Assembly: GCA_035651955.1 (NCBI GenBank)
Contig: DASRES010000023.1
Location: 1-48,708, forward strand
Reading direction: 5' to 3'
Length of the DNA stretch: 48,708 nucleotides
DNA from: Acidimicrobiia bacterium
GTDB taxonomy: Bacteria; Actinomycetota; Acidimicrobiia; IMCC26256; JAMXLJ01
A program made the position numbers and the translations under genes. Within the stretch, counting starts at the first letter, position 1. Each line of letters starts with the position of its first letter. The notes beneath the pieces are model-generated. The model was not told the origin of the DNA and did not search any database. It saw only the letters and a program-made list of their open reading frames with translations. Shown here one piece after another: positions 5,498-48,708 of the stretch.

Positions 5498-6648
5498 CGC
5501 GACGTGTCGGCGCGAAGGAGGAACGCGACGTTGCCGCCGAAGAACGCGGGATCGTCGGCCGGTGCGCCGGCGCGCGGGCACATCGCCCGGTAGTCCTCGA
5601 GCGGCGTCGCGGTCCCCTCGCCGTGCGGGTAGTCGCTGCACGCCATGAAGATGTCCCCGGCGCGCTCGCGCAGGAGGTCGGGTCGCTCGTACGCGAACGC
5701 GGCGATGCGCGCCTGCCGGCGGATGTACGCGCTCGGCGGCTCGTCGAGCTCGGTGAGCGGCCGGCCGTTCTGGCGGCGGTGGAAGTCGAACGTCCCGTCC
5801 AGGCTGGGCAGGAAGTGCGCGGCCCACGACGCGGACAGCTCCATCACCCCGATGCGCAGATCGGGATGGCGGGCAAGCACACCGTGGATCGCGAGGTCGG
5901 CGAGCGCGAGCGCGGCCGGGACCCAGATGAACGCGGTCTGCAACACCGGGTCGACCGGGTCGAAGTCACCCTCGTACCACGGCTCCGCGAACGGCCGGTC
6001 GAAGTTCGAGACGTGGAAGACGGGCGTGATCCCGTGCTCGACGAACGACGCCCACGCGCGATCGAGATCGGGATGGTGCAGCGGCTTCCCGTCGACGAGC
6101 GCGGGACCGAGCATCGCGAGGCGCACACCGCCGGCATCCAGCGCGCGGAGCTGCGCGGCGAGCCAGTCGAGGTCGCGCAGCGTCACGTGCGCGACGGGAT
6201 GGAGCCGGCCGCGCCCCTGTTGCGCGACGTCGATCGCCCACGAGTTCCACGCCGCCATGTTCGTCGTCAACGCGTGCAGGTCTCGCTCGACCGCGCGCTC
6301 CCAGACGAGTCCCGCGTTGGGGAACAGCACCGCCGCGTCGAGCCCGAGGGCGTCGAGCCGGGCGATGCGCGCATCGGGGTCGTGGTAGTCGGCGGGCGCG
6401 TCGTCGTAGTTCACGTCGGCACGCTCGCCGGCCCGGTTCGCGGCCCGGCCCGCGCCGGTACCGTCGACGTCGCCCGGCCGGAACACCTCGGCCGGATAGA
6501 TCCGTCGGCCGCGCCACGTGACCCAGCCGAACCCGAGGTCGTCGTCGACGATGCGGACGCAGTCGTCGCGATCGCGCGCCGGCGACCGTTCGGCCCACAG
6601 CTCGCGCGCCTCGAACAGGTGCTGGTCGGCGTCGATCACCGTCGTCAT
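5494..6648 (-). CDS. amidohydrolase-related metalloenzyme
   Basis: A 384-aa TIM-barrel amidohydrolase 2 (ACMSD-like) protein, a family of metal-dependent hydrolases and decarboxylases acting on small organic acids. Candidate metal ligands are D-x-H in VIDADQHLFE at residues 4-13, His in PVFHVSNF in mid-barrel, and Asp in MACSDYPHGEG near residue 340. The ATG at 6648 has GGAGGTGCC just upstream. It is divergent from the DUF2889 gene, with a perfect 16-bp palindrome between them. It is more distantly related to the two longer amidohydrolases at 18126 and 43194. The exact substrate cannot be read from the sequence. Confidence 0.85.
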   Translation of the reverse strand: MTTVIDADQHLFEARELWAERSPARDRDDCVRIVDDDLGFGWVTWRGRRIYPAEVFRPGDVDGTGAGRAANRAGERADVNYDDAPADYHDPDARIARLDALGLDAAVLFPNAGLVWERAVERDLHALTTNMAAWNSWAIDVAQQGRGRLHPVAHVTLRDLDWLAAQLRALDAGGVRLAMLGPALVDGKPLHHPDLDRAWASFVEHGITPVFHVSNFDRPFAEPWYEGDFDPVDPVLQTAFIWVPAALALADLAIHGVLARHPDLRIGVMELSASWAAHFLPSLDGTFDFHRRQNGRPLTELDEPPSAYIRRQARIAAFAYERPDLLRERAGDIFMACSDYPHGEGTATPLEDYRAMCPRAGAPADDPAFFGGNVAFLLRADTSR

Positions 6649-18125: not shown

Positions 18126-19415
18126 ATGAACACCGACGACATGATCATCGTCAGCGTCGACGACCACGTCGTGGAGCCGCCCGACCTGTTCACGCGTCAC
18201 CTGCCCGCGAAGTACCAGGACATCGCGCCGCACGTCGTCCGCATGGAGGACGGCAGCGACGTCTGGCAGTTCCACGGCATCCACGTGCCGAACGTCGGGC
18301 TCAACGCGGTCGCCGGCCGCCCGCCCGAGGAGTACGGGATCGACCCGACGAGCTTCGACGAGATGCGTCCGGGCTGCTTCGAGATCGAGAAGCGCGTCCT
18401 CGACATGAACGCGAACGGCGTGCTCGGCTCGTTGTGCTTCCCCTCGCTCCCGGGGTTCGCGGGCCGCCTGTTCGCCGCGATCGAGGACAAGGACGCCGCG
18501 CGCGTCCTCGCGCAGGCCTACAACGACTGGCACATCGACGAGTGGTGCGGCACGTATCCGGGCCGGTTCATCCCGCTCAGCATCCCGCTGATCTGGGATC
18601 CCCAGGCGATGGCCGACGAGATCCACCGCGTCGCGAAGAAGGGCTGTCACGCGGTCACGTTCGCCGAGAACCCCGAGCCGCTCGGCCTCCCGAGCCTGCA
18701 CAGCGACCACTGGGACCCGTTCTGGAAGGCGTGCTCCGACGAGGGGACCGTCGTGTGCATGCACATCGGATCGTCGTCGAAGCTCGTGACGACCGCGGTC
18801 GACGCGCCGATCGACGTGCTGATCGTGCTGCAGCCGATGAACATCGTGCAGTGCGCGGCGGACCTGATCCACTCGCCCGTCTTCAAGAAGTTCCCCGACC
18901 TCACCGTCGCGCTCTCCGAGGGCGGGATCGGGTGGATCCCGTACTTCCTCGAGCGGCTCGACCACAGCTACCGCGTGCACAAGGCGTGGACGGGCGCTGA
19001 CTTCGGCTCGAAGATGCCGAGCGAGGTGTTCATGGAGCACATCATCCTGTGCTTCATCTCCGACCCCGTCGGCGTGCAGCTCGCGCGCCGCATCGGCATC
19101 GACCGCATCACGGTGGAGATCGACTACCCGCACTCCGACAGCACGTGGCCGCGCGCGCCGGAGAAGCTCGCCGCCGAGTTCGCGTCGACGGATCTCACAG
19201 ACGACGAGATCGACAGGATCACCTACAAGAACGCGATGGGCTTCTTCCAGTACGACCCGTTCGCGCACCGGCCGAGGGAGCAGTGCACGGTCGGCGCGCT
19301 GCGGACGGAGGCCATCGGCGTCGACGTCGAGCCGAAGAGCGTGACGGGCGCAGCACGCAAGTCCGAGCGTGAGGGCCGTGTGACGATCACCGACCTCGCG
19401 GCACGCGCACGCTGA
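18126..19415 (+). CDS. amidohydrolase family protein (ACMSD-like)
   Basis: A 429-aa amidohydrolase 2 (TIM-barrel) protein, a family of metal-dependent decarboxylases and hydrolases. Candidate ligands are D-x-H in IVSVDDHVVEPPD (residues 8-20), His in CMHIGSSS mid-protein and Asp in EIDYPHSDSTWP near residue 340. It is closely similar along its whole length to the protein at 43194-44471, including AYNDWH, LQPMNIVQCAADL, SEGGIGWIPYF and EQCTVGALR. Both are preceded by the same operator. The ATG at 18126 follows GCGGAGGCGGCC. The substrate is unknown; it may be a cyclic or aromatic carboxylate. Confidence 0.9.
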   Translation: MNTDDMIIVSVDDHVVEPPDLFTRHLPAKYQDIAPHVVRMEDGSDVWQFHGIHVPNVGLNAVAGRPPEEYGIDPTSFDEMRPGCFEIEKRVLDMNANGVLGSLCFPSLPGFAGRLFAAIEDKDAARVLAQAYNDWHIDEWCGTYPGRFIPLSIPLIWDPQAMADEIHRVAKKGCHAVTFAENPEPLGLPSLHSDHWDPFWKACSDEGTVVCMHIGSSSKLVTTAVDAPIDVLIVLQPMNIVQCAADLIHSPVFKKFPDLTVALSEGGIGWIPYFLERLDHSYRVHKAWTGADFGSKMPSEVFMEHIILCFISDPVGVQLARRIGIDRITVEIDYPHSDSTWPRAPEKLAAEFASTDLTDDEIDRITYKNAMGFFQYDPFAHRPREQCTVGALRTEAIGVDVEPKSVTGAARKSEREGRVTITDLAARAR

Positions 19416-30779: not shown

Positions 30780-31427
30780 TCAGCGCGTCCGCTTGGTGGA
30801 GCGGCGTGTCGACTTGCGCGCCGTCGACTTGCGGGCCGCCGTGTTGCGGCCGCCCGTGGACTTGCGGCCCGACGCGCGGGTCGACTTCTTCGTGCCGGTC
30901 GTCTTCCGCCGGGTCGTCTTGCGGGCTGCGCTCTTGCGCCCCGTCGACTTCCGGGTCGACTTCTTCGTCGACGTGCGCGGACTCGTCCTCTTCGCGCCCG
31001 TCGACTTGCGGGTTGTCGCCTTCCGCCCCGTGGACTTCCGTCCGGTCGTCTTCCGGCCCGCGGTCTTCCGTGCCGTCGACTTGCGGGCGGTCGACTTGCG
31101 CGTTGTCGACTTGCGCGCGCCCGTCGACGTGCGGGTCGCCTTCTTGGCACCCGCCTTCTTCCCGGCGGCCTTGCGGGTTGTCGACTTCCGGCCCGTCGCC
31201 TTCTGGCCGCCCGACTTTCGTGCAGTCGACTTGCGGCCGGTCGCCTTGCGCGCACCGGTCCGCTTCGTCGTCCGGCGCGTGCCGGGCTCGGGTGCCGGAA
31301 CGGGTGGCGGCATCGGCATCGCGCTGGCGAAGTCGTCGACCGACGACCGAACCTCGGTGCCGGCGAGCGCGCCGAGCTCGTCGTCGATGCCTTGCAGGCG
31401 GTCGTGGGATGCACTGTCGGAATGCAT
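30780..31427 (-). CDS. histone H1-like Lys/Arg-rich repeat protein
   Basis: A 215-aa protein with two parts. Residues 1 to about 50 are ordinary and slightly acidic (DRLQGIDDELGALAGTEV), followed by a Pro-rich linker. The remainder is a tract of repeated 5-8-residue units such as RKSTA, RKTTG and KKSTR, almost wholly Lys, Arg, Ser, Thr, Gly, Ala. This composition is that of histone-H1-like tails on actinobacterial HU and other nucleoid proteins. It probably binds DNA non-specifically, with many Ser/Thr available for phosphorylation. The ATG at 31427 follows GGAGGGGGCG at ideal spacing. The DNA repeats the same 12-base pattern with drift. Confidence 0.8.
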   Translation of the reverse strand: MHSDSASHDRLQGIDDELGALAGTEVRSSVDDFASAMPMPPPVPAPEPGTRRTTKRTGARKATGRKSTARKSGGQKATGRKSTTRKAAGKKAGAKKATRTSTGARKSTTRKSTARKSTARKTAGRKTTGRKSTGRKATTRKSTGAKRTSPRTSTKKSTRKSTGRKSAARKTTRRKTTGTKKSTRASGRKSTGGRNTAARKSTARKSTRRSTKRTR

Positions 31428-31640
31428 CGCCCCCTCCTCGTCCACGTGGTTCGCGGTCCCGTGTTCGCGCCGTCATCGCGCCGTGGTCGCGGCCGGCGTC
31501 CGTGCACGTGGTGTGCCGACCGGATCCCGCAGTGCGTACCCCGTCACGATGCGCTCGAATCGCGCGACACGCAAGCGCGCGCGTGCGCACGCGATCGGGG
31601 TACACGTGTCGGCACGCGCACGCCGACGACGGGAGGTCCG
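31428..31640. other. 213-bp divergent intergenic region
   Basis: The gap between the histone-like and pirin genes shows no gene. It presumably holds both promoters. An 8-bp palindrome, ACACGTGT, is at 31602-31609, 32 bp before the pirin start, but it is too short to call an operator. Confidence 0.4.
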
Positions 31641-33143: not shown

Positions 33144-33824
33144 GTGGCGACGGAGACCGCCTCGGACGCGGGCACCGACGGTCGCACGGCTCGAGCGGCA
33201 CGCACGCGCGACGCGGTCGTCGAGGCGCTCCTGTCCCTCATCGACGAGGGGGACGTGCGGCCACCAGCTCGGCGGGTCGCGGAGCGTGCGGGCGTGTCGC
33301 TGCGGTCCGTCTACGTCCACTTCGACGACCTCGAGGACCTCTACTGCGCGGCCGCGAAGCGCCAGTACCGGCGCATCTCGGCGCTCGTCGTCACGCTCCC
33401 GACGGACGGCCCCCTCGACGCACGGCTGCGCGCATTCGTCGACCAGCGCGCCCGCGTCCTCGAAGCCGGTGCGCCCGTCCGGCGCGCCGGACTGTTCCAC
33501 GCGGTCACGTCACCGACCCTCGCGCGCGTCATGCACGTCAGCCGGAAGGCAGGCCGCGCCGAGGTCGAGAAGGTCTTCGGCACCGAGCTCGACACCTACG
33601 CACGTGACGCCACCGAACGGCGCCATCTCCTCGCCGCGCTCACGACGGCAGCCAGCGCGGCGACGTGGGAGACGTTGCGCGAGCACGAGCAGCTCGGGAT
33701 CGACGACGCGGCCGCGGTGATGCACGACATGCTCGCCGCGATCCTCGCGTCGCGCCGTCCGAGAACCGCCGCGCGGCGCGGCGGACCACGCGCCCGCGCG
33801 GCGCCAAGGCGAGCGCGGGGTTAG
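33144..33824 (+). CDS. TetR family transcriptional regulator
   Basis: A 226-aa TetR-family regulator. The helix-turn-helix lies at about 18-65: TRDAVVEALLSLIDEG, then PPARRVAERAGVSLRSVYVHFDDLEDLYCAA, with the YxHF motif typical of TetR recognition helices. The C-terminal ligand domain is variable and ends in a basic Arg/Ala-rich tail. The ligand may be an acyl-CoA, given the enoyl-CoA hydratase beside it. The GTG at 33144 is the start. It heads, or lies just before, the transporter operon (35-bp gap) and has TGACACG half-sites in its promoter, so it is the leading in-window candidate for the regulator of the recurrent palindrome. Confidence 0.88.
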   Translation: MATETASDAGTDGRTARAARTRDAVVEALLSLIDEGDVRPPARRVAERAGVSLRSVYVHFDDLEDLYCAAAKRQYRRISALVVTLPTDGPLDARLRAFVDQRARVLEAGAPVRRAGLFHAVTSPTLARVMHVSRKAGRAEVEKVFGTELDTYARDATERRHLLAALTTAASAATWETLREHEQLGIDDAAAVMHDMLAAILASRRPRTAARRGGPRARAAPRRARG

Positions 33825-33858: not shown

Positions 33859-36030
33859 TTGCCGGTCGCGACGAACGAAGCGGGGACGTCCGCCATTCGG
33901 AGTGTCGGCGCGGGTCTTCGTGCGCACGACATCGACCCCGGGCGCGCGAGCGCGTTCCTCGTCATGCCGGTCATCGCGCTCGTGCTCCGGCAGGTCTGGA
34001 ACGTGCCGTGGGGCGTCGTCGTGCAGGGCCTCATCATCGGCGGCCTGACCGCGCTCGTCGCGCTCGGCATCGCGCTCGTCTACCGCGCGAACCGCATCAT
34101 CAACTTCGCCCAGGGCGACCTCGGCGCGGTCCCGGCGACCCTCGCCGTCCTGCTGATCATGAGCCTGGGCGTGCCGTACGTCGTCGGCTTCGCGACGGGG
34201 CTCGTCGCCGCGATCGTGCTCGGCATCCTCGTCGAGACGCTCATCATCCGCCGCTTCTTCCGAGCCCCGCGGCTGATCCTGACCGTCGCGACGATCGGTC
34301 TCGCGCAGGTGCTCGCGGCGTGCGGGCTCCTGCTGCCCAACCTCTTCGACTCGTCGACGTTCGCGCCCCGGCTCGAGCCGCCCTTCCACCTGACGTTCAC
34401 GGTCAACCCGATCCGGTTCGAGGCCACCGACATCCTGACGTTGTTGACCGTGCCGCTGGCGTTCCTCGCGCTCGCGCTGTTCCTGCGCCGCTCGAGCGTC
34501 GGCATCGCGATCCGCGCCGCGGCGGAGCGCGCGGACCGGGCGTCCACGCTCGGCATCCCGGTGAGGCGCATCCACACCGTCGTGTGGGTGATCGCGACGG
34601 TGCTCGCGTTCGTCGCGATGTTCCTGCGCGCCGGAGTCGTCGGCCCGCAGATCGGCTCCGTGCTCGGGCCCGACATCCTCCTGCGCGTGCTCGCCGCGGC
34701 CGTGATCGGGCGGATGGAGCGGTTCCCGACGATCGCGTCGGCCGCGCTCGGCCTCGGCATCGTCGAGCAGGACATCTTCTGGCACTGGCACGAGGCGTCC
34801 TACATCGACCCCGCGCTGTTCGTGGTCATCCTCGGCGCGCTGCTGCTCATCCGTCAGTCGCGTCGCACGTCGCGCATCGACAGCGACGAGACGTCGACCT
34901 GGCAGGCGGCGCGCGAGGTGCGGCCCGTCCCCCGCGAGCTCGTGCGCCTCCCCGAGGTCCGCTACGCGCGCTGGGGACTCGGCCTCGCGGTGTGCGCGTT
35001 CCTGCTCACGCTCCCCGCGTGGCTCGACCAGAGCCGCGTCAACCTCGCGGCGGCGATCGTGATCTTCGGCATCATCGGCCTCTCGCTCGTCGTGCTGACG
35101 GGCTGGGCCGGCCAGGTGAGCCTGGGCCAGATGGCGTTCGTGGGGATCGGCGCGGCGGTGGGCGGCTCGCTCACGTCGCGCCTCGGCTGGGACCTGTCGA
35201 TCGCGCTCGTGGTCGCCGGGCTCGCGGGCGCGGTCATCGCGGTCGTCATCGGCTTCCCGGCCATCAGACGCGGTGGGTTGACCCTCGCGGTGATGACGCT
35301 CGCGTTCGCGCTCGCCGCGTCGTCGTACTTCCTCAACCGTCAGTTCTTCTCGAACTGGCTGCCCGCGCTGCGCATCGACCGACCGCCGATCTTCGGCAGC
35401 GTGGACGTCGCCAGCGAGACGCGCTTCTACTACCTGACGCTCGCGTGTCTCGTCATCGCGCTCGCGATGGTGCGAGGCGTCCGTCGCAGCCGCACCGGCC
35501 GCGTGCTGATCGGCATCCGCGAGAACGAGCGCGCCGCGCGCTCGTTCGGTGTCGACGCGACGCGCACGAAGCTCGCGGCGTTCGCCTTCTCCGGGTTCCT
35601 CGCCGCGTTCGCGGGCGCGCTGTTCGTGCACCACCAGACCGGCCTCGGCACGGCGCCGTACCAGCCCGAGGAGAGCCTCACGGTCTTCACCATGGTCGTG
35701 ATCGGCGGGCTCGGCTCCGTGCCGGGCGCGCTGCTCGGCGCGACGTACGTCCGCGGCGTGGACTGGTTCGTGCCGTCCGACTACCGGTTCCTGGCGACGG
35801 GTGCCGGGCTCCTCCTCGTCCTGATGATCGCCCCCGGCGGTCTCGGTGCGGTGATGTACGACGTGCGCGACTGGTACCTGCGCAAGGTCGCCCACCGGCG
35901 CGGCGTGGTCGTCCCGAGCCTCGTCGCCGACGTGCGACAACCCGAGCCCGTCCCACGGGCCGACCAGGCGGCCGCCGAGGCCGAGGCCGAGGAGACAGCC
36001 GACGCGATCAGTCAGGGGTTGCACTCGTGA
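33859..36030 (+). CDS. fused LivH-LivM branched-chain-type ABC permease
   Basis: A 723-aa inner-membrane protein joining both permeases of a branched-chain amino acid (HAAT) ABC importer. The N-terminal half (about 40-335) is LivH-like: GLIIGGLTALVALGIALVYRANRIINFAQGDLG is its hallmark. The C-terminal half (about 370-680) is LivM-like: GLSLVVLTGWAGQVSLGQMAFVGIGA and IGIRENERAARSFGVD are its hallmarks. A hydrophilic linker lies at about 335-370 and an acidic tail at the end. The TTG at 33859 has GAGGGGGAG upstream. Its TGA overlaps the GTG of the next gene. Such importers carry varied organic acids and amides as well as amino acids, so the substrate is open. Confidence 0.92.
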   Translation: MPVATNEAGTSAIRSVGAGLRAHDIDPGRASAFLVMPVIALVLRQVWNVPWGVVVQGLIIGGLTALVALGIALVYRANRIINFAQGDLGAVPATLAVLLIMSLGVPYVVGFATGLVAAIVLGILVETLIIRRFFRAPRLILTVATIGLAQVLAACGLLLPNLFDSSTFAPRLEPPFHLTFTVNPIRFEATDILTLLTVPLAFLALALFLRRSSVGIAIRAAAERADRASTLGIPVRRIHTVVWVIATVLAFVAMFLRAGVVGPQIGSVLGPDILLRVLAAAVIGRMERFPTIASAALGLGIVEQDIFWHWHEASYIDPALFVVILGALLLIRQSRRTSRIDSDETSTWQAAREVRPVPRELVRLPEVRYARWGLGLAVCAFLLTLPAWLDQSRVNLAAAIVIFGIIGLSLVVLTGWAGQVSLGQMAFVGIGAAVGGSLTSRLGWDLSIALVVAGLAGAVIAVVIGFPAIRRGGLTLAVMTLAFALAASSYFLNRQFFSNWLPALRIDRPPIFGSVDVASETRFYYLTLACLVIALAMVRGVRRSRTGRVLIGIRENERAARSFGVDATRTKLAAFAFSGFLAAFAGALFVHHQTGLGTAPYQPEESLTVFTMVVIGGLGSVPGALLGATYVRGVDWFVPSDYRFLATGAGLLLVLMIAPGGLGAVMYDVRDWYLRKVAHRRGVVVPSLVADVRQPEPVPRADQAAAEAEAEETADAISQGLHS

Positions 36031-39000
36031 ACCGCGTGCGCACCTGGTTCTCGACGCTCGGCGGCGGCGCGGCGCTGTACCCGCTCGTCGTGCTGTTCGG
36101 ACTGGCGACGGTGGAGCAGTTCGACCAGCGCGCGTTCGACGTGTTGCTCCCGAACATCCGCGACGCGTTCGGCCTGAACACCCAGGCGATCCTCGCGGTC
36201 GTCGGGTTGACGGGCGCGGCCGCGCTCGTCATCGCGGTGCCGATCGGGTTCTACGCGGACCGGTGGTCGCGTGTCCGGATCGCGACCTGGGGCGCGCTCG
36301 CGTGGGGTGTCTTCTCGGTGCTGACGGGCTTCGCGCCGGTCCTCTGGGTGCTCGGCCTCGCTCGGGCCGGCTCCGGGCTCGGCGGCGCCACGATCGTCCC
36401 GACGCACAACTCGCTGCTGTCCGACTACTACGACATCCCCGCGCGTCCGAACGTCTACGCGGCACACCGCGCCGCGTACGCGGTCGGTGCGTGCATCGGC
36501 CCGCTCTTCGCCGGCCTGCTCGCGTACTACTTCGGCTGGCGGACGCCCTTCGTCGTCTACGGCCTGCCGACGCTCGTGTTCGTCATCCTCGCGCTGCGCC
36601 TGCGCGAGCCCCTGCGTGGTCACTTCGAGCGCGCCGCGATGGGCGTGAGCGACGAGGTCCGCGACACCGAGGACATCCCGCCGTCGATGGCCGAGTCGTG
36701 GCGGATCGTGTGGAGCGTGGGCACGCTGCGCCGCGTCTTCTACGCGCTGCCGTTCCTCGCCGTCGCGTTCCTCGGGCTGCTCAGCCTCGGGTCGCTCTTC
36801 TACTCGCAGACGTTCCATCTCGACGAGCGGGCCCGCGGGTACATCGCGGCTGCCGTGGAGCCGGCCCAGCTCGTCGGACTGTTCGTGGGCATCCCGATCG
36901 CGACGCGCCTGCTCGCGCGCGACGCCGCGCTCGTGCTGCGGTTCCTCGCCATCGTCGGCTTCGTCGTGGCGGCCGCGTGGACGGGGTTCGCGTTGAGCCC
37001 GACGCTGCCTGTCGCGATCGCCATGAACGTGATCGTCTCGGGCATCGTCGTCATCCTGATCCCGGGCATCTTCGCGGCGCTCTCGCTCGCGATGCCCCCG
37101 AAGGCCCGCTCGTTCGGGTTCGCCGTCGCGGGGCTGTGGATCCTGCCCGGGCTCGTGCTCCTGCCGATCATCGGCAGCGCGGCCGACGCGTGGGGCATCC
37201 GGGGCGGGCTGCTGCTGATGGTCCCCGTCTTCGTGATCGGCTCGCTGATCATCGCCTCGGCGGGCAGCGAGGTGAACGACGACATCCGCAAGGTGTGGAC
37301 CGCGGCGGCCGCCCAGGCGGAGGTGCTGTACGAGCGCCGGCAGGGCCGCGTGAAGCTGCTGCTCGCGCGCGGCGTCGAGGTGGAGTACGACGGCGTCCAG
37401 GTGCTGTTCGGCGTCGATCTCGAGGTCGACGAGGGCGAGATCGTCGCGCTGCTCGGCACCAACGGGGCCGGGAAGTCGACGCTGCTGAAGGCGATCTCCG
37501 GCCTGGTCGAGGCGAGCGCGGGCGCGATCGTGTTCGACGGCCGTGACATGACGCACACGCCGCCGGACGAGATCGCCCAGCGCGGCGTCGTCCAGGTGCC
37601 GGGCGGTCAGGGCGTGTTCCCGTCACTGACCGTCGCCGAGAACCTCCAGCTCGCCGGCTGGCTGCGCCGCCACGACGCCACGCACGTACGCGACGCGACC
37701 GAGCGCGTGCTGGGGATCTTCCCGGTGTTGCGCGACCGGCTCGACGAGCCGGCCGGCAACCTCTCGGGCGGTCAGCAGCAGATGCTGACGCTGGGCATGG
37801 CGTTCATCGAACGGCCGCGCCTGCTGATGATCGACGAGCTGTCACTCGGGCTCGCGCCCGCGGTCGTCGAGCAGTTGCTCGAGATCGTCCGCACGCTGCG
37901 CGAGGCGGGAACGACGATCATCCTCGTCGAGCAGTCGGTGAACGTCGCGCTCACGGTCGCCGAGACCGCGTACTTCATGGAGAAGGGCGAGATCCGCTTC
38001 CACGGCCCGACCGCCGAGCTCCTCGACCGTCCCGACATCCTGCGGTCCGTGTTCCTGGAGGGAGCGGCGAGCGTCCGCGAGGCGGGTATCCCGTCGAGCA
38101 GCGAGCGCGACCATGGGGATCGCGCGGCGAGCGTGACGGGCGACGCCGAGCCACCGTCGATGGAGCCGCTGCGCGTGCCTGCGGCGCCGGCGCGCAACGG
38201 CAACGGTCGCAGGAACGGGCACGCGACCGTGCCGGCGGGCGAGGCGCGCCTGTCCGTGCGTGACGTGACGAAGCGCTTCGGCGGGATCACCGCGCTGCGC
38301 GACGTGGGGTTCGACGTCGCGCCCGGCGAGGTGCTCGGCTTCATCGGGCCGAACGGTGCCGGCAAGACGACGCTCTTCGACGTCGTGTCGGGCTTCCTGC
38401 CCGCGGACCTCGGCACCGTGACGCTGACGGTCGACGGCGAGGCACTCGACATCACCCGCACGTCGCCGCAGCGGCGCGCGCGGCTCGGTCTCGGCCGGTC
38501 GTTCCAGGACGGGCGGCTGTTCCCGGCACTCACGGTCGCCGAGACGATCGCGGTCGCGCTCGAGACGCACGTCGAGGTGCGTGACCCGATCGCCGCGGCG
38601 CTGAACCTCCCCGCGGTGACCGACTCCGAGGCCGACGTCGCCGAGCGCGTCGAGGAGCTGATCGCGCTCATGGGCCTCGACGCGTTCCGCGACAAGTTCG
38701 TGCGCGAGCTGTCCACCGGGAGCCGGCGGATCGTCGACCTCGCGTGCGTGCTCGCACACGGACCGTCGGTGCTCCTCCTCGACGAGCCGTCATCGGGCAT
38801 CGCGCAGCGCGAGGCCGAGGCGCTCGGGCCGCTGCTCCTGCGGATCCGCGAGGCGCTCGGCGCGAGCATCCTCGTCATCGAGCACGACGTCACGCTCCTG
38901 ACGTCGATGTCGGACCGGATCGTCGCGCTCGACCTCGGCGAGGTGATCGCGACGGGTCCGCCGGACGAGGTCGTCCAGGACCCGCGCGTCGTCGCGTCGT

Positions 39001-39071
39001 ACCTGGGAACCACCGAATCCGTCGTCGCGCGCTCGGGCAGCCGTCCGGGCACAGGAGGTGCAGACGAGTGA
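36027..39071 (+). CDS. MFS-LivF-LivG triple fusion transporter
   Basis: A 1014-aa protein joining three proteins that are usually separate. Residues 1 to about 415 form an MFS transporter: IGFYADRWSRVRIATWG is the loop 2-3 motif, then about 12 hydrophobic segments. Residues about 445-685 are a LivF ATPase: Walker A GTNGAGKST near 478, signature LSGGQQQ near 580 and Walker B MIDELSLGL. A disordered linker rich in Pro/Arg/Asn lies at about 690-740. Residues about 742-995 are a LivG ATPase: GPNGAGKTT near 774, signature LSTGSRR near 896, and LLLDEPSSG. No stop or frame change interrupts the joins. The GTG start overlaps the permease stop, and its own TGA overlaps the next gene's GTG. Confidence 0.93.
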   Translation: MNRVRTWFSTLGGGAALYPLVVLFGLATVEQFDQRAFDVLLPNIRDAFGLNTQAILAVVGLTGAAALVIAVPIGFYADRWSRVRIATWGALAWGVFSVLTGFAPVLWVLGLARAGSGLGGATIVPTHNSLLSDYYDIPARPNVYAAHRAAYAVGACIGPLFAGLLAYYFGWRTPFVVYGLPTLVFVILALRLREPLRGHFERAAMGVSDEVRDTEDIPPSMAESWRIVWSVGTLRRVFYALPFLAVAFLGLLSLGSLFYSQTFHLDERARGYIAAAVEPAQLVGLFVGIPIATRLLARDAALVLRFLAIVGFVVAAAWTGFALSPTLPVAIAMNVIVSGIVVILIPGIFAALSLAMPPKARSFGFAVAGLWILPGLVLLPIIGSAADAWGIRGGLLLMVPVFVIGSLIIASAGSEVNDDIRKVWTAAAAQAEVLYERRQGRVKLLLARGVEVEYDGVQVLFGVDLEVDEGEIVALLGTNGAGKSTLLKAISGLVEASAGAIVFDGRDMTHTPPDEIAQRGVVQVPGGQGVFPSLTVAENLQLAGWLRRHDATHVRDATERVLGIFPVLRDRLDEPAGNLSGGQQQMLTLGMAFIERPRLLMIDELSLGLAPAVVEQLLEIVRTLREAGTTIILVEQSVNVALTVAETAYFMEKGEIRFHGPTAELLDRPDILRSVFLEGAASVREAGIPSSSERDHGDRAASVTGDAEPPSMEPLRVPAAPARNGNGRRNGHATVPAGEARLSVRDVTKRFGGITALRDVGFDVAPGEVLGFIGPNGAGKTTLFDVVSGFLPADLGTVTLTVDGEALDITRTSPQRRARLGLGRSFQDGRLFPALTVAETIAVALETHVEVRDPIAAALNLPAVTDSEADVAERVEELIALMGLDAFRDKFVRELSTGSRRIVDLACVLAHGPSVLLLDEPSSGIAQREAEALGPLLLRIREALGASILVIEHDVTLLTSMSDRIVALDLGEVIATGPPDEVVQDPRVVASYLGTTESVVARSGSRPGTGGADE

Positions 39072-40759
39072 GCATGCAGTCGCGACCCTCTGGCCCCCGG
39101 CGCGCCAGCGCGCTGCGTCGCTACGGCCCGATCGTGGCCGTCGTGGCCGTCATCGCGATCGTCGTCGCGGTGTTCGGCGCGACGAGCGGCGGCGGCGGAG
39201 GCAAGAAGAACAACGCGGCGTCCGTAAGCGCGTCGGGCAACGGTCCCGTGATGTTCGACAAGTCGCTGAAGGTGGACTGGGGCCCGAACTGCGACACGAC
39301 CACTGGCAAGGTGAAGATCCCGTCCATCTACGCGCCACCGTGCGTCGAGCCCTTCAAGGGCAACAACGGGGGCGCGACGGCGCCGGGTGTCACCGCTGAC
39401 ACCATCACGGTCGCCGTCTACGTCGGGCAGAACGACCCGCTCCAGGGCGCGTTCCTCACCGGCGCGGGTGCGAACATCACGCCGGACACCAACGCCGACC
39501 AGATCATCGACTTCGGCAAGCTGTACGAGTCGCACTTCGAGATGTACGGCCGCAAGGTCGACTTCGTGAAGTACCACGCGACCGGCGGCCCGGCCGACGA
39601 GGCGGCGGCGAAGGCCGACGCGATCAAGATCGCCACCGACATCAAGCCGTTCGCGGTGTTCGGCGGTCCGGCCGAGACGAGCGCGTTCGCCGATCAGCTC
39701 GCAGCCGAGCACATCGTGTGCGTCGGCAACTGCGCGGGCACGTATCCGACCAGCTTCGTGAAGGCGCGCGAGCCGTACCTATGGGAGTTCGGCCCGCTGA
39801 CCGACCAGGCGGCGCAGCTCTCGGGCGAGATGATCGGCAAGCAGCTCGGCGGGAAGAAGGCCGTGCACGGCGGCGACGCGGTGAAGGACAAGGACCGAGT
39901 GTTCGGGATCCTCCACTACAACACGCCCGACGGGCAGTACACGGAGCTCTTCCACAACCTGCAGGACGCGCTCGCGAAGTACCACGTCAAGGCGGCGACC
40001 GACGTCAGCTACCCGCTCGACCTGACCCAGGCGAGCGAGCTCGCGCGCACGACGATCGCCAAGTTCAAGAGCGCCGGCGTGACGACCATCATCATGATGG
40101 GTGACCCAATCATGCCCAAGTACTTCACCGACGAGGCGACGAAGCAGAACTACTTCCCGGAGTGGGTGATCGGGCCGAACGTCTTCATCGACACCGCGAT
40201 CTTCGGACGGACGTACGACCAGAAGCAGTGGGTCCACGCGTTCGGGTTCTCGCTCACGCCGGCGCGCGGCGAGCAGCAGACCGACAACGCGTTCAACCTC
40301 TACGAGTGGCAGTACGGCAAGAAGCCGCCGTCGAACATCTACGACGTCACGAACTACGACCCGTCGATCTTCTTCACGGGCGTCCATCTCGCGGGGCCGA
40401 ACCTGACACCCCAGACGTTCGAGGCCGGGCTGTTCCGCGCGCCGATCGTCGGCGGCGGCCCGACGACGGTGACGATCTCGCGCGGCCATCACGGCCTGTG
40501 GCCGGGAACCGATCTCGGCGGGATCGACGACGCGACGGAGATCTGGTGGAACCCGACGGCATCGGGCGTCGACGAGGTCGGTCACAACGGGACCGGGCTG
40601 TGGGAGTACGTCGACGGCGGGAAGCGGTACCGCCTCGGGCAGTTCCCGAGCCAGGATCCCGGCTTCTTCGACCCGAACGGCGCGGTCACGATCTACAAGA
40701 CGCTGCCCGCGTCGGACACACCGCCGTCGTACCCGTCTCCGGCGGGCACCGGCGGGTAA
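39068..40759 (+). CDS. ABC transporter substrate-binding protein, first copy
   Basis: A 563-aa periplasmic-binding-protein type I-like protein for the adjacent Liv-type importer. An N-terminal basic stretch and one hydrophobic segment (about 21-41) are followed by a Gly/Lys/Ser linker. There is no lipobox Cys, so it is released or stays anchored by the helix. Paired Cys occur in NCDTTTGKVK...APPC and CVGNC. VTADTITVAVYV opens the ligand domain. GGAGG nine bases before the GTG (39068) supports that start; an ATG lies two codons on. It is closely similar throughout to the next gene, by tandem duplication. The ligand is unknown. Confidence 0.88.
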   Translation: MSMQSRPSGPRRASALRRYGPIVAVVAVIAIVVAVFGATSGGGGGKKNNAASVSASGNGPVMFDKSLKVDWGPNCDTTTGKVKIPSIYAPPCVEPFKGNNGGATAPGVTADTITVAVYVGQNDPLQGAFLTGAGANITPDTNADQIIDFGKLYESHFEMYGRKVDFVKYHATGGPADEAAAKADAIKIATDIKPFAVFGGPAETSAFADQLAAEHIVCVGNCAGTYPTSFVKAREPYLWEFGPLTDQAAQLSGEMIGKQLGGKKAVHGGDAVKDKDRVFGILHYNTPDGQYTELFHNLQDALAKYHVKAATDVSYPLDLTQASELARTTIAKFKSAGVTTIIMMGDPIMPKYFTDEATKQNYFPEWVIGPNVFIDTAIFGRTYDQKQWVHAFGFSLTPARGEQQTDNAFNLYEWQYGKKPPSNIYDVTNYDPSIFFTGVHLAGPNLTPQTFEAGLFRAPIVGGGPTTVTISRGHHGLWPGTDLGGIDDATEIWWNPTASGVDEVGHNGTGLWEYVDGGKRYRLGQFPSQDPGFFDPNGAVTIYKTLPASDTPPSYPSPAGTGG

Positions 40760-40784: not shown

Positions 40785-40814
40785 GCGGGCCGCGCGCGTA
40801 GCGTGTCGGCCCGC
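40785..40814 (+). promoter_or_regulatory. hairpin immediately before second binding-protein gene
   Basis: GCGGGCC (40785-40791) pairs with GGCCCGC (40808-40814), a 7-bp stem directly before the ATG at 40815. There is no obvious Shine-Dalgarno in the loop. It may limit translation of the second copy, stabilise the upstream mRNA or attenuate. Confidence 0.4.
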
Positions 40815-42500
40815 ATGCAGCCGACCCCGCCGACCCCCAACCGTTCCCGCAGCCGCGCGTGGCGCCGCTACGTCCCGGTGCTCGCCGTCGTCGTCGTCAT
40901 CGCGGTCGTCGCCGCGGTCGTCGCCACGATGGGCGGCGGCAGCAGCAAGAAGTCGTCCACGGTGAACGCGACCGCGCAACGCAACGGCGAGCCGCCGCTC
41001 TTCTCGCGTGACGCGAAGATCGATTGGGGTCCCAACTGCGACACCCGCACCGGCAAGGTGAAGGTGCCGCTGTCGTACGCGCCGCCGTGCGTCCCGCCGT
41101 TCCACGGCAACAACGGCGGCGCGACCGCCAACGGTGTCACCGGCGACACGATCACCGTCGCCGTCTACGAGCAGCAGCCCGACCTGTTGCAGCAGGTCTT
41201 CTTCGAGCGCAGCGGCGCCGACGAGACCGTCAAGGCGGAGGAGGCCACGCAGCAGGCGTACGTGAACTTCTTCGAGTCGCACTACGAGATGTACGGACGC
41301 AAGGTGAAGCTCGTGTTCGTCAAGGCGAGCGGCTCGGACGACGACGACGCGGCCGCGAAGGCCGACGCGATCAGGGTCGCGACGCAGATCCACGCGTTCG
41401 CGTCATGGGGCGGCCCGCAGATGACGAGCGCGTACGCGGACGAGCTCGCCGCGCACGGCGTGCTGTGCGTCGGCGACTGCACGCTCGCGCAGCCCCAGAG
41501 CTTCGTGGACCAGCGCGCGCCGTACATCTGGCCCACGGAGCCGTCCTTCGAGCAGGCCGCCGTCCACTGGGCGGAGTTCATCAGCAAGGAGGTCGCGGGC
41601 CGGAAGGCCACGCACGCGGGCGACCCGGCGATGCGGAACGAGACGCGCAAGTTCGGGCTCATCCGCTACGACGACGACAGCGGGACGTTCGCGGCGAGCG
41701 CGGCGCACTTCACGTCGCTGCTCGCGAAGAGCCACGTGAAGCTCGCGGCCGACGTCGCCTACCCGTTCGACCTCACGAAGGCCCAGGAGACGGCGCGCAC
41801 CGTCGTCAGCCAGATGAAGGCCGCGGGCGTGACGTCGGTGATCCTCGGTGCCGACCCCGTCATGCCGTCGTACTTCACGAGCGAGGCGACACGGCAGGGC
41901 TACTTCCCCGAGTGGATCGTGCTCGGCACCGTCTACACGGACACGACGTTGTTCGGCCGGACGTACGACCAGAAGCAGTGGTCGCACGCGTTCGGCGTGT
42001 CGCTGCTGCCCGCCCGGGGCGACGAGGCGAACGACCAGCTCGCCCAGATCCTCACGTGGCAGACGGGTCACCCGCCGGCCGCGAAGACGTACCCCGAGCT
42101 CGTCCAGTCACCGCTCATCTTCTTCACTGGCGTGCACCTCGCCGGCCCGCACCTGACCGCGCAGACGTTCCGCGACGGCCTGTTCCGGTATCCGAGCGGC
42201 CCGACCCATCCCACGTTGCTGCACGTGTCGTGGGGCAACCACGGCATCTGGCCGACGACCGACTACTTCGGCGGCGACGACGCGACGCTCATCTGGTGGA
42301 ACCCCGACGCGACGGGCCCCGACGAGGTCGGCAACGACGGCAAGGGGATGTACGAGTACGCGCGCGGCGGCCAGCGGTACCTGCCCGGTCAGTGGCCGAG
42401 CGGCGACGCCGACGTGTTCAACCCGGCGGACGCGGTGACGATCTTCAAGACGCTGCCACCGGCCGACACGCCTCCGAGCTATCCGAGCCCCGCGGGCTGA
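40815..42500 (+). CDS. ABC transporter substrate-binding protein, second copy
   Basis: A 561-aa paralogue of the preceding protein. It shares the basic N-terminus, the single hydrophobic segment (about 20-40), the absence of a lipobox, the NCDTRTGKVKVP...APPC pair and the motifs FFTGVHLAGP, FGRTYDQKQW, WWNP and PPSYPSPAG at the end. Differences in the middle (for example DLLQQVFFERSGAD versus DPLQGAFLTGAGAN) suggest ligand divergence. The ATG at 40815 is chosen because it aligns with the paralogue's MQ start; a GTG at 40803 is possible. It is probably part of the same operon, separated by the hairpin at 40785-40814. Confidence 0.87.
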   Translation: MQPTPPTPNRSRSRAWRRYVPVLAVVVVIAVVAAVVATMGGGSSKKSSTVNATAQRNGEPPLFSRDAKIDWGPNCDTRTGKVKVPLSYAPPCVPPFHGNNGGATANGVTGDTITVAVYEQQPDLLQQVFFERSGADETVKAEEATQQAYVNFFESHYEMYGRKVKLVFVKASGSDDDDAAAKADAIRVATQIHAFASWGGPQMTSAYADELAAHGVLCVGDCTLAQPQSFVDQRAPYIWPTEPSFEQAAVHWAEFISKEVAGRKATHAGDPAMRNETRKFGLIRYDDDSGTFAASAAHFTSLLAKSHVKLAADVAYPFDLTKAQETARTVVSQMKAAGVTSVILGADPVMPSYFTSEATRQGYFPEWIVLGTVYTDTTLFGRTYDQKQWSHAFGVSLLPARGDEANDQLAQILTWQTGHPPAAKTYPELVQSPLIFFTGVHLAGPHLTAQTFRDGLFRYPSGPTHPTLLHVSWGNHGIWPTTDYFGGDDATLIWWNPDATGPDEVGNDGKGMYEYARGGQRYLPGQWPSGDADVFNPADAVTIFKTLPPADTPPSYPSPAG

Positions 42501-43174
42501 GACGGCAACACCGGCAGGTCGTCGAGATCGGGGACCCGCACCCAGCCCTCGCCGAGCACGTAGCGGCGGATGACCCGCGCCGGGTTGCCGACCGCGACGG
42601 AGAAGTCGGGGATCTCGCCGGTGACGACCGCGCCCGCGCCGATCACCACGTGCCGGCCGATCGTCGCACCGGGCAGCACGACCGCACCGTGGCCGAGCCA
42701 CGAGTCGGACCCGATCGAGACGGGTCGCGGTTCCGAGAACTGCTTGCCGATGGGCAGGGTGACGTCCTCGTACCCGTGGTTCGCGTCCGTGATGTAGACG
42801 TGGTGGCCGGTCCACACGTCGTCGCCGATGACGATCTCGCGATGGCCGACGATGCCGCTCCCCTTCCCGATCACCGTGCGGTCACCGATCTCGATCACCG
42901 GGTCGTGGTCGGGGACGTGCTCGGGTGACACGCCCGCGGACAGGCTCGAGTACGGGCCGATCATGCAGTCGTCGCCGATGCTGATCCAGCGCTCGCCGAA
43001 CAGCGCGCTGGCCGGGAAGCAGATCGCGCTCCCCCGCCCGAGGTGCCCGAAGCGCCGGCCCCGACGACTGTTCGGGCCGATCGTGCCGAGCCGCATCGCG
43101 TGCTGCCAGGCCCACCGGATCGCCGCCCCGGACGCGACGCGCACCGGGTCGAGCGGCCGTTCGGGTTGCGACAC
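42479..43174 (-). CDS. hexapeptide-repeat acyltransferase (LbH fold)
   Basis: A 231-aa left-handed beta-helix protein, similar to maltose O-acetyltransferase/VatD-type acyltransferases. Repeating hexads occur from about residue 60: ISIGDD, CMIGPY, VIEIGDRTVIGKG, IVIGDDVWTGHHVYI, VSIGSDSWLGHGAVVLPGATIG and HVVIGAGAVVTG, ending with AVGNPARVI. DANHGYED includes the likely catalytic His. The acceptor is probably a sugar or envelope component. GTG is the start. Its 3' end overlaps the convergent binding-protein gene by 22 bases. Confidence 0.88.
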   Translation of the reverse strand: MSQPERPLDPVRVASGAAIRWAWQHAMRLGTIGPNSRRGRRFGHLGRGSAICFPASALFGERWISIGDDCMIGPYSSLSAGVSPEHVPDHDPVIEIGDRTVIGKGSGIVGHREIVIGDDVWTGHHVYITDANHGYEDVTLPIGKQFSEPRPVSIGSDSWLGHGAVVLPGATIGRHVVIGAGAVVTGEIPDFSVAVGNPARVIRRYVLGEGWVRVPDLDDLPVLPSQPAGLG

Positions 43175-43193: not shown

Positions 43194-44471
43194 TCACTTC
43201 GCCCGGCGTGCTCCCGCGCCGAGCAGGTCGGCGGCCTTCGTCATGCCCGGGCGCTTGCCCACGCTCTTGGGCGTGATGTCGACGTCGGTGGCCTGCGCGC
43301 GCAGCGCGCCGACCGTGCACTCCTGCCGTGGCCGGGTCGCGAACGGGTCGAACCGGAAGTGGCGCGACGCGTTCCGCCACGTGATCTTGTCGATCTCGTC
43401 GTCGGGCACGCCGTCCATGCTCTTCATGAGGAACTCCGGCGACGTCGGCCACGTCGTGTCGGAGTGCGGGTAGTCGCACTCCCAGGTGATCGTGTCGATC
43501 CCGACCCGGTGACGGTTCGGGACGCCGGACGGGTCGTCGATGAAGCAGGTGACGAACCGCTCGCGGAAGAACTGGCTCGGCAGCTGGTCGCCGAAGTCCT
43601 GGCCGGTCCAGCGGTGGTGGCGCGTGTAGATCCAGTCGACGCGGTCGAAGAAGTACGGGATCCAGCCGATCCCGCCCTCCGACAACGCGATCCGCAAGTC
43701 GCGGAACTTGCGGAGCACGGGCGACCACAGCAGGTCGGCCGCGCACTGCACGATGTTCATCGGCTGCAGGCTGATGAGGACGTCGATCGGCGCGTCCTCG
43801 GCGGTCACCACGAGCGTCGAGCTCGACCCGATGTGCAGGCAGACGATCGTCCCCTCGTCGACGCAGGCCTGCCAGAACGGGTCCCAGTGGTCCGAGTGGA
43901 AGCTCGGCAGTCGCAGCTTCGCGGGATTCTCCGAGAACGAGACGGCGTGGCAGCCCTTGTCCGCGAGGCGGTGGACCTCGTCGGCCATCAGCGCCGGATC
44001 CCAGATGGGGACGAGCCCGAGCGGGATGAACCGCCCCGGGTACGCGCCGCACCACGCGTCGACGTGCCAGTCGTTGTACGCGCGGAGGATCGCGTGGCCC
44101 GCGTCGAGGTCCGACGAGCGCGAGAAGAGCTGACCGCACAGGTTCGGGAACGACGAGAAGCACATCGACGCGAGGACGCCGTTGACGTTCATGTCCCCGA
44201 TCCGCTTGTGCACGTCGAAGCAGCCGTCGCGGATCTCGTCGAAGGAGGTCGGCTCCATGCCGTACTCCTCGAGCGGACGACCGGCGACCGCGTTGAGCCC
44301 GATGTTGGGGATCTCCTTGCCGTCGTACATCCACACGTCGGTGCCGTCGTCCTTGCGCACGAGGCGCGGCGCGACGTCCGCGTACTTCGCCGGAAGGCGA
44401 CCCTCGAACATGTCGGGCGGCTCGACCACGTGGTCGTCGACGCTGATCAGGATCATGTCCTCGACGCGCAT
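43194..44471 (-). CDS. amidohydrolase family protein (ACMSD-like), paralogue
   Basis: A 425-aa protein closely similar to the one at 18126-19415. Candidate metal ligands are D-x-H in LISVDDHVVEPPD, His in CLHIGSSS and Asp in ECDYPHSDTTWP near residue 345. The shared AYNDWH, LQPMNIVQCAADL, SEGGIGWIPYF and QECTVGALRAQ confirm paralogy. Like its partner it has TGACGG-N2-ACGTCA a short distance upstream (44503-44516). The ATG at 44471 is preceded by GAGGACCTCGCG. Two similar enzymes under the same operator suggest related substrates in one pathway. Confidence 0.9.
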   Translation of the reverse strand: MRVEDMILISVDDHVVEPPDMFEGRLPAKYADVAPRLVRKDDGTDVWMYDGKEIPNIGLNAVAGRPLEEYGMEPTSFDEIRDGCFDVHKRIGDMNVNGVLASMCFSSFPNLCGQLFSRSSDLDAGHAILRAYNDWHVDAWCGAYPGRFIPLGLVPIWDPALMADEVHRLADKGCHAVSFSENPAKLRLPSFHSDHWDPFWQACVDEGTIVCLHIGSSSTLVVTAEDAPIDVLISLQPMNIVQCAADLLWSPVLRKFRDLRIALSEGGIGWIPYFFDRVDWIYTRHHRWTGQDFGDQLPSQFFRERFVTCFIDDPSGVPNRHRVGIDTITWECDYPHSDTTWPTSPEFLMKSMDGVPDDEIDKITWRNASRHFRFDPFATRPRQECTVGALRAQATDVDITPKSVGKRPGMTKAADLLGAGARRAK

Positions 44472-46419: not shown

Positions 46420-48708
46420 CTACGGATTCCAGCGGTCGTGCACGTAGTGTTCGATCTGGAGCTCGTCGTCGACGGCCTGCGTCCTGTTGTTCAGGCGCGC
46501 GAAGAACACCGGCTTGCCCTTCTCCGCGCCCGGCAGCTCGGCCGACACCGGATGGCCGCTCGGCTCGACGTGCACGCGACAGACGTCTTTCCCGTCCACC
46601 GTCTGGATCTGCGTCGTCACGTTCGCGGCTGCAGCCAGCCCGACCGCGTTCGCGACGAGCTGGGTCAGGTGGAGCTGGAAGAGGTCGCGGTCGTCCTTGC
46701 CGTCCTTGTGCAGCGTCGCGTAGTCGGGCTCGAGGCCGACGACCGTTCCCCCGCCCGTCGACGAGTCGTCGGCCACTCCGATGAGCAGCGTGCCGCCGAA
46801 CCTATCGTTGAGGAACGCGGCGATCGTCTTCAGCACCGCGCTTTCCATCACGCGGCTCTTCTTCTGCTCGCGCAGATCCCACCGCAGGGTCGACTTGTAC
46901 TCGAGGTGCTGGTCCTCGCCGCGCTCCAGCAGGTCGCCGAGTGGGCAGGTCTTCTGGAACCCGACCCGCGCCCGCTCGTACACTTCGGGGAGCATCCACG
47001 CACGCACGTCACCCGCGAACTGCGCGTCATCGAGCAAGCGGTACGTGAGCTCCTCGGCGCTGTACTGACGCTCCACGACGGCGTCGGTGAACGCGTCCGC
47101 GAACGGGATGCCGAAGTTCTCCTTCGTGTTCGCGGCGGCCTGCTGCTGGAGCTTCGGATTGCTCGACATGTCGGCGACGATCCCGTGCAGGTGCAACGCG
47201 TCGGCCTCGGTGAGGTCGAGCCCGTACGTCTCGTTGAACCGGCGGATCACGTCCGACAGCGGCTCCATGCCCGGCAGATACCGCGAGCCGGTGCCATCGC
47301 CGGTGAACGTGGTCAACGGCTTCGGCTCGTCACCGCCGAGCGAGATGTTCGCGGTGCCCGTCTTCGCAACGCGAAGGTGCGTGAGGTCGAGCTCGAGGTC
47401 GAGCGCGACCGCTTCCTCCCGTGGCAACCGCAGCCGGAGCATCCGGCAGTAGACGTAGCGCTTCTCCAGCGACGTGTCCGCGAGCGAGAGCACCTGCGCG
47501 AGGAACGCGTACAGGTTGACGAACCGCTCCAACGCCCGACGGAACTCGTGCTGATCGTCCTCGTCGAGCTCGGTGAAGCGTCCCCGGGCCGGATCGAGCT
47601 GCTCGTAGAGCTTCGCGTGCAGGGTGGCGTCGTTGCGCGTGCCGCCGAACCACAGCGCCGCGAACGCCTCGATCTCGTCGTCACGCAGCACACCGAAGAC
47701 GTCCAGCGCGGCGCGCGCGTCGAACAACGTGTTCGGATCCGTAGGCGTGGCGAGCGTGCACTCGTAGAACGGCGCGAACGCGCGCTCGATCTCGTCGGCC
47801 TCGTTCGCGAAGTCGAGGACGAACGTCGAGTTCTTCTCGGGATGGATGCGGTTAAGGCGTGACAGCGTCTGCACGGCGTTGACGCCCGACAGGCGCTTGT
47901 CGACGAACATCGTGTGCAGCAGTGGCTGGTCGAACCCGGTCTGGAACTTCTCGGCGACGACGAGCAGGTGGTGCCCGGGCAGGGCGAATCGCTCGGCCGT
48001 CTCCCGCTCGGGGAAGCGGTTCATCTTGGGCTCGGTGAACTCGGTGCCCGTCGACGGGTCCGTCACGGTTCCCGAGAAAGCGACGAGCGCCGAAACGTCG
48101 CCGATGCCCTGCTCGGCGAGGTTGCCGTCGATCGCGAGCTTCATGCGGACCGCGTGGAGTCGCGATCGGCACACGACCATCGCCTTCGCCTTCCCGCCGA
48201 TCTCGTGACGGGTGTGCGCCCGGTAGTGGTCGACGACGATCTTCGCCCGCTGCTTCATGTTGTCGGGATGCAGCGACACGAACGCGGCGATCTTGGCCGA
48301 CGCCTTGCGTGACTCGACCTCGGGATCGTCGGCGATCGCGTCCTGGAGCCGGAAATACGTGCTGTAGGTCGTGTAGTTGGCGAGGACGTCGAGGATGAAG
48401 CCCTCCTCGATCGCCTGGCGCATCGAGTAGAGGTGGAACGGCCGGTACGTGCCGTCCGGCCCGTCGCGCTCGCCGAAGAGCTCGAGCGTCTTGCCCTTCG
48501 GCGTCGCGGTGAACGCGAACATCGACAGGTTCGCGTGACGGCCACGCGCCCGGGCCGCCCGCTCGACGGTCGCAGCGACGACGTCCTGCGGGTCGGGCTC
48601 GGCGTCGTCGTTGTCGTCGTCGCCGTTCGCGGCCGGCTCGGTCGACGGGATCGCGCCGAGGACCGCCTTCATCTCCTTCGCGGCGTCACCGGTCTGCGAC
48701 GAATGGGC
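46420..48708 (-). CDS. hsdR: type I restriction HsdR subunit with AlbA_2 tail (partial)
   Basis: The visible 762 residues are the C-terminal part; the 5' end lies beyond the window. The first residues AHSSQTG are the tail of the DEAH helicase motif. FAFTATPKGKTLELFG is motif III, HLLVVAEKFQTGFDQPLLHTMFVDK is motif V, and VNAVQTLSRLNRIHP is motif VI. HsdR is the ATP-driven translocase and nuclease of type I restriction enzymes. The nuclease and Walker A lie outside. After the helical C-terminal region, about residues 597-760 read HLEYKSTLRW...KTIAAFLNDRFGGTLLIGV, a Schlafen/AlbA_2-type domain. It is not a pseudogene on this evidence: no internal stop is seen. HsdM/HsdS are not in view. Confidence 0.9.
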   Translation of the reverse strand, partial: AHSSQTGDAAKEMKAVLGAIPSTEPAANGDDDNDDAEPDPQDVVAATVERAARARGRHANLSMFAFTATPKGKTLELFGERDGPDGTYRPFHLYSMRQAIEEGFILDVLANYTTYSTYFRLQDAIADDPEVESRKASAKIAAFVSLHPDNMKQRAKIVVDHYRAHTRHEIGGKAKAMVVCRSRLHAVRMKLAIDGNLAEQGIGDVSALVAFSGTVTDPSTGTEFTEPKMNRFPERETAERFALPGHHLLVVAEKFQTGFDQPLLHTMFVDKRLSGVNAVQTLSRLNRIHPEKNSTFVLDFANEADEIERAFAPFYECTLATPTDPNTLFDARAALDVFGVLRDDEIEAFAALWFGGTRNDATLHAKLYEQLDPARGRFTELDEDDQHEFRRALERFVNLYAFLAQVLSLADTSLEKRYVYCRMLRLRLPREEAVALDLELDLTHLRVAKTGTANISLGGDEPKPLTTFTGDGTGSRYLPGMEPLSDVIRRFNETYGLDLTEADALHLHGIVADMSSNPKLQQQAAANTKENFGIPFADAFTDAVVERQYSAEELTYRLLDDAQFAGDVRAWMLPEVYERARVGFQKTCPLGDLLERGEDQHLEYKSTLRWDLREQKKSRVMESAVLKTIAAFLNDRFGGTLLIGVADDSSTGGGTVVGLEPDYATLHKDGKDDRDLFQLHLTQLVANAVGLAAAANVTTQIQTVDGKDVCRVHVEPSGHPVSAELPGAEKGKPVFFARLNNRTQAVDDELQIEHYVHDRWNP

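Follow-up and report, generated by a model that had tools for sequence, protein, structure and literature searches.

A spinster-like MFS domain fused to the LivF and LivG ATPases of a Liv-type ABC importer

Introduction

ABC transporters and carriers of the major facilitator superfamily (MFS) are usually regarded as distinct classes, each with an energy source of its own. Described systems approach the arrangement reported here from several sides. In Rhodococcus jostii RHA1, the ABC system CamABCD and the MFS carrier CamM belong to one catabolic programme and handle different metabolites (PMC8399759). MFS domains also occur joined to other proteins, as in the sensor kinase-MFS fusion family (TC 2.A.1.34), the function of which is listed as unknown (PMC3924187). 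Among the spinster carriers, residues of HnSpns have been assigned roles: D41 pairs with R122, E129 acts as the proton switch, and D87, R91, and D142 form a charge relay (PMC9440201).

Here we analyse a locus within a 48,708-nucleotide stretch of DNA from an Acidimicrobiia bacterium (hereafter, the window) in which an MFS domain, a LivF-type ATPase, and a LivG-type ATPase are encoded in a single reading frame, directly behind a fused LivH-LivM permease. A search of the openly accessible literature found no description of an MFS-LivF-LivG fusion.

Results

The three domains share one intact reading frame

The fusion gene (36027–39071; plus strand, as are all features below unless stated otherwise) begins with GTG and runs as one stop-free frame of 1014 codons for amino acids. 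The first-pass annotation had read MFS, LivF, and LivG in this one protein, and both the translation and the domain searches bear this out: Pfam places MFS_1 (PF07690) at residues 24–370 (E 5.8e-34), two ABC_tran stretches (E 1.2e-57), and BCA_ABC_TP_C at 972–995, and NCBIfam identifies residues 448–665 as UrtE/LivF type and 742–995 as UrtD/LivG type. The protein opens with a 12-TM MFS domain, continues through a helix of 26 residues into LivF, and ends, after a flexible linker, with LivG. The permease gene (33859–36030), annotated as a fusion of LivH and LivM, is indeed one, with two BPD_transp_2 domains (PF02653, E 8.4e-57); its product is 723 aa long as called, with an uncertain start codon.

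A sequencing or frame error as the source of the fusion is ruled out by a same-genus ortholog, by relatives in the order, and by the pattern of codon-position differences. The same-genus genome carries a fusion 82% identical over residues 3–1009, and the differences lie mainly at the third codon position in all structured segments, junction included (first/second/third position: MFS 52/32/144, junction 3/2/7, LivF 22/12/74, LivG 40/27/89). GC3 of these segments is 0.95–1.00. Only the LivF-LivG linker (residues 677–739) diverges freely between the two orthologs. The frame problem that the first-pass annotation had flagged for checking is therefore absent, there being no stop between domains and a third-position bias throughout the structured segments.

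The same domain order recurs well beyond the genus. About 20 further genomes of the order encode the full-length fusion, mostly at 57–74% identity. When GTDB contigs were scanned with an alignment of the MFS domain, 80 named loci emerged, nearly all labelled as Acidimicrobiia or other Actinomycetota. Thirteen of the 80 are cut by a contig end and were left out; in the 67 that could be judged, MFS, LivF, and LivG lie in one frame in every case (67/67), nearly always directly after a fused LivH-LivM, and the complete isolate genome IMCC26256 is among them. One of the two scan patterns sits in the junction helix and so favours fused forms. A profile search of whole genomes is free of this bias; it matched 103 of the 395 genomes of the class, a figure that includes MFS-LivF paralogues and standalone carriers, and it returned only one clear standalone member of the main MFS clade (L072), which adjoins a substrate-binding protein (SBP) only. 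The worry that relatives might encode separate proteins, with the fusion peculiar to this assembly, is dispelled by these counts.

A rigid junction and a flexible leash

An AlphaFold model of the fusion, built from 65 sequences (mean pLDDT 86.7, pTM 0.72), places the spinster-like MFS domain with its 12 TM helices at residues 18–410 (36078–37256). TM12 (391–410) is followed by a junction (residues 411–442; 37257–37352) in which a confident helix, 413–438, leads into LivF at residue 443. The junction is of fixed length: the span from R392 to K443 measures 52 aa in every triple fusion of the order that extends as far as LivF, and the MFS-LivF paralogues have 55 aa there. The linker between LivF and LivG (38055–38243) is of another kind, with pLDDT <50 at residues 677–735 and a length of 26–75 aa among relatives. 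The constant length and confident helix on one side, and the variable, disordered linker on the other, indicate from model and alignment together that MFS and LivF are rigidly joined, and that LivG is on a flexible leash.

Both ATPases have intact motifs. The LivF-type domain (residues 443–676; 37353–38054) carries GTNGAGKS, LSGGQQQ, LMIDEL, and LVEQSV, and the LivG-type domain (residues 740–1000; 38244–39026) carries GPNGAGKT, LSTGSRR, LLLDEP, and LVIEHD, followed by the BCA_ABC_TP_C tail; apart from small changes, these motifs are kept in 65 of 65 sequences. In the model LivF pairs with LivG as the ATPases do in the fused proteins DppD and OppD, and Foldseek matches the pair to such tandem ATPases (for DppD, TMt 0.74). 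The first-pass annotation had proposed that the ATPases dock on the permease. What stands of this is that the parts are complete and intact, that there is one LivHM for each LivF-LivG pair, and that the two ATPases pair in the model; the docking itself stays a prediction.

An operon with two binding proteins

A TetR-type regulator (33144–33824; PF00440 just under the cut-off, 22.7 vs 24) lies upstream of the operon, and such a regulator recurs upstream of LivHM in many relatives of the order. The LivH-LivM fusion is itself present in nearly all relatives. Its stop codon TGA and the GTG start of the MFS-LivF-LivG gene share the overlap GTGA (36027–36030), and a 4-nt overlap is also found in 40 of 55 relatives with both ends called; from this arrangement, translational coupling of the two genes is expected. 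A promoter and terminator scan gave nothing informative.

Downstream lie two substrate-binding proteins that are 53% identical: SBP1 (39074–40759; start inferred from the reading frame), with an N-terminal TM anchor, and SBP2 (40803–42500). Neither Pfam, which matches SBP1 to no family, nor NCBIfam recognises the binding proteins, and a binding-protein profile found no match among PDB sequences. The predicted fold of SBP2 (pLDDT 89.4) is nevertheless that of a class I, LivJ/K-like binding protein, an assignment made by predicted fold only; the best Foldseek matches are Liv and aromatic-acid binding proteins (E 1e-14, identity 10–15%). SBP1 falls outside the clade of SBP2, as if one permease served two binding proteins of different origin.

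On the minus strand, convergent with the operon, is a hexapeptide-repeat O-acyltransferase (42479–43174; PF00132, E 2e-18) resembling WbbJ and maltose/galactoside acetyltransferases, with weak NCBIfam matches to sugar O-acetyltransferases. This neighbour recurs in most loci of the order, and regulator, LivHM, fusion, binding proteins, and acyltransferase together form a block that recurs in relatives.

Elsewhere, the window encodes three Amidohydro_2-type proteins (5497–6648, 18126–19412, and 43194–44471), two of them 62% identical; a Lys/Ala/Thr/Arg-rich repeat protein matching the histone H1-like nucleoprotein HC2 (30783–31445, minus strand); and a 750-aa protein with type I restriction enzyme R-subunit-like and Schlafen/AlbA_2 domains, perhaps a defence gene (46423–48672, minus strand).

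Sequence conservation argues for a working MFS carrier

The nearest solved structure to the MFS domain is HnSpns (6e8j; profile E 2.6e-23), and the nearest solved relatives as a group are lipid or drug exporters (HnSpns, EfpA, SPNS1/2, and QacA). Aligned to HnSpns, D41 corresponds to D33, R122 to R113, D87 to D78, R91 to R82, D142 to D133, and the switch residue E129 to G120. Across the 94 main-clade MFS domains (91 of them different), D33 and R113 are each kept in 93, and the motif A charge relay D78, R82, and D133 in all 94. The Arg in TM4 and the Asp in TM1 that mark spinster carriers are thus present, and G, S, or A predominates where RxxxG has its closing Gly. H127, also kept in 93 of 94, is without counterpart among the cited HnSpns residues. 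What is missing is the spinster Glu switch: 85 of the 94 domains have K, R, or G at position 120, usually K or R, and four have E, so that proton coupling may differ from that in HnSpns. The MFS domain diverges about as fast as LivH and LivM. Taken together, the conserved D33, R113, and relay and the LivH/LivM-like rate argue, at the level of sequence, that the carrier works and that its proton coupling is altered. Among the MFS-LivF paralogues and the most divergent triple fusions, neither D33 nor R113 is fixed, and some of these copies may be non-transporting.

The strongest alternative is that the MFS domain in general no longer transports and now serves as a membrane module with a structural or regulatory task, such as anchoring LivF, stabilising the complex, or sensing a ligand in the membrane or inside the cell; the sensor kinase-MFS fusions may be a parallel. 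We consider this unlikely, though it deserves serious weight. It is favoured by the rigid fixation to LivF and by the paralogues that lack D33 and R113. The cytoplasmic central loop (residues 191–236) is also conserved above the MFS average (0.58 vs 0.53; about the top 9% of windows), a difference that is only moderate; we rejected it as proof of docking and keep it as a lead. Within this loop, R226 and R236 occur without exception in the 101 MFS domains of the main clade and the divergent triple fusions. Among 18 relatives that are standalone or of the MFS-LivF form, position 226 is never Arg and position 236 is Arg in four, a pattern expected for an interdomain contact; we treat such a contact as another lead. 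Against the module stands the retention of D33, R113, and the motif A relay in 93–94 of 94 domains, which a passive anchor would not need.

Uptake probably does not need the MFS domain

If the MFS domain is a working carrier, its role can be approached through systems that do without it. Close MFS-less [LivH-LivM-LivF-LivG] systems use binding proteins that fall, with full support, in the clade of SBP2, and they have the same acyltransferase neighbour; uptake of the SBP2 ligand therefore probably does not require the MFS domain. The first-pass annotation had suggested a dual-mode system in which the MFS domain moves a co-substrate or product; such a role may exist, but these systems speak against its being obligatory. 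This would favour an accessory export role over an import role, and we suggest that the MFS carrier is accessory to uptake. The export direction as such is guessed by analogy with the nearest families.

A second alternative makes the MFS domain an importer of the same solute, working by proton symport at high supply while the ABC part works at low supply. Consistent with such dual-affinity uptake, the best NCBIfam match of the MFS domain is an aromatic acid/H+ symport family, and the best Foldseek matches of the binding protein include aromatic-acid binders. The former match reaches just 73 bits against a cut-off of 418.55, however, the latter identities are only 10–15%, and the nearest solved MFS relatives are the lipid or drug exporters listed above; we regard this alternative as improbable.

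Possible substrates are sugars or glycosides, aromatic acids, and branched-chain amino acids. We rejected the gene neighbourhood as a decisive guide among them, as neighbours differ by lineage and offer hints at most: the acyltransferase is similar to sugar acetyltransferases, two paralogous loci of this genome lie beside sugar genes, and other relatives adjoin amidohydrolase and enoyl-CoA hydratase-like genes.

Modules are shuffled around a constant stoichiometry

The same genome has two paralogous loci of the form [MFS-LivF][LivH-LivM-LivG] (L009:4135-9239 and L010:3958-9053). They use ordinary Peripla_BP_6 binding proteins, and sugar genes adjoin them (GH4 and an FGGY kinase; GH1, a GHMP kinase, and GalT). 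At L064:7475-12556, LivH-LivM-MFS-LivF-LivG form one frame of 1694–1729 aa, so that a single polypeptide may hold an entire ABC transporter together with an MFS carrier. MFS-less arrangements include LivH-LivM-LivF-LivG fusions (L066, L067, L081, and L085) and [LivH-LivM][LivF-LivG] (L068, L069, L079, and L080). Every arrangement that bears an MFS domain has exactly one for each LivH, LivM, LivF, and LivG.

In a LivF tree with mixed support, MFS-less lines are scattered among and around those that bear an MFS domain, and this scatter suggests that the MFS domain has been lost repeatedly. The MFS-LivF fusion may have arisen once or twice, depending on the root of the MFS tree, in which standalone relatives are placed close to each fused clade. 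Two candidate sources of evidence were discarded. Separate MFS and LivF genes in L183 near 8553, which looked like a fission, result from an assembly gap (N run) that splits an MFS-LivF gene, and standalone MFS genes considered as a “Rosetta stone” beside Liv operons have no LivH/LivM adjoining them (L181, L182, L184, L189, L194, and L197). In other classes of the phylum, four genomes (G400, G414, G428, and G528) each contain several long-frame copies of MFS-LivF-LivG or MFS-LivF, a lineage-specific expansion.

Since every one of the modules takes part in fusions here, and in differing orders, the fusion could be a neutral gene-joining habit with no meaning beyond co-expression. A habit of this kind fits poorly with a fusion that practically all relatives have kept unbroken, with a junction that does not vary in length, and with a main clade in which L072 is the one clear standalone relative; we consider it, too, improbable, and marginally more so than dual-affinity uptake.

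Discussion

We propose that the locus encodes a complete Liv importer with a rigidly tethered, proton-coupled MFS carrier that probably exports a product, overflow, or counter-substrate, a reading drawn from sequence and model to which we give about an even chance of being right. One chain each of LivHM and MFS-LivF-LivG would supply two permease halves, two ATPases, and one MFS domain. LivF and LivG would dock under LivHM, to which SBP1 or SBP2 would hand a small organic solute for import. Held beside LivHM at 1:1, the MFS domain would go through a proton-coupled cycle of its own. What it exports would most likely be derived from or related to the imported solute: a product, overflow, or an analogue that the cell cannot use, perhaps modified beforehand. 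The main effect of the tether would be to fix stoichiometry and location.

On the opposite view, one motor serves two carriers: LivF-LivG hydrolyse ATP and, through the rigid helix, gate or drive the MFS domain mechanically. This view draws on the invariant junction length, the continuous helix, and the conserved central loop, but it is without precedent among the families compared, and it must share a single ATPase dimer per chain pair that LivHM requires. Coupling was also probably not what the helix arose for, since each of the six standalone MFS relatives examined already has its Asp, D419. We judge this view very improbable. The specific form of coupling in which ATP-driven import of one solute is mechanically linked via the TM12-LivF helix to proton-linked export of another strikes us as equally far-fetched.

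Here an ABC motor and an MFS domain are fixed at 1:1 in a clade-wide, long-lived arrangement, found across many actinobacteria of soil and water, most of them uncultured. Provided that the MFS domain is functional, this is a natural import/export pair in which coupling can be tested by single mutations on either side. The genes are likely annotated just as “MFS transporter” or “ABC ATP-binding protein”, and under such names the system would stay hidden in many uncultured actinobacterial genomes.

Comparison with known systems

With LivFGHM and its binding proteins LivJ/LivK (HAAT), the locus has in common the LivH/LivM permeases, here as two BPD_transp_2 domains; the LivF/LivG ATPases, with Walker A, signature, Walker B, and BCA_ABC_TP_C; the class I binding-protein fold, as predicted by model; and two binding proteins per permease. 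It differs in that the permeases are fused, the ATPases are fused, a spinster-like MFS domain has been added, and the binding proteins go unrecognised by the family libraries. We rejected a urea transporter of the UrtABCDE type: the LivF part passes the UrtE cut-off (306.2 vs 285.8), but it is the only part to pass one, the LivG part falling just under that of UrtD (303.3 vs 304.1) and the permeases far under those of UrtB (80.1 vs 250.3) and UrtC (90.6 vs 296.2).

The MFS domain shares its fold with HnSpns (6e8j) and the Spns/EfpA group, together with the counterparts of D41, R122, D87, R91, and D142; in contrast to them, it lacks a counterpart of E129 and is fused to ABC ATPases. The mycobacterial Opp/Dpp proteins DppD and OppD likewise pair two ATPases within one chain, but that chain has no membrane domain. 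The sensor kinase-MFS family offers a parallel in that MFS is joined to an unrelated protein, although the partner there is a kinase, and CamABCD with CamM, which likewise bring an ABC system and an MFS carrier together in one programme, are separate proteins. Each domain of the fusion is of a known kind; their combination is widespread in the class.
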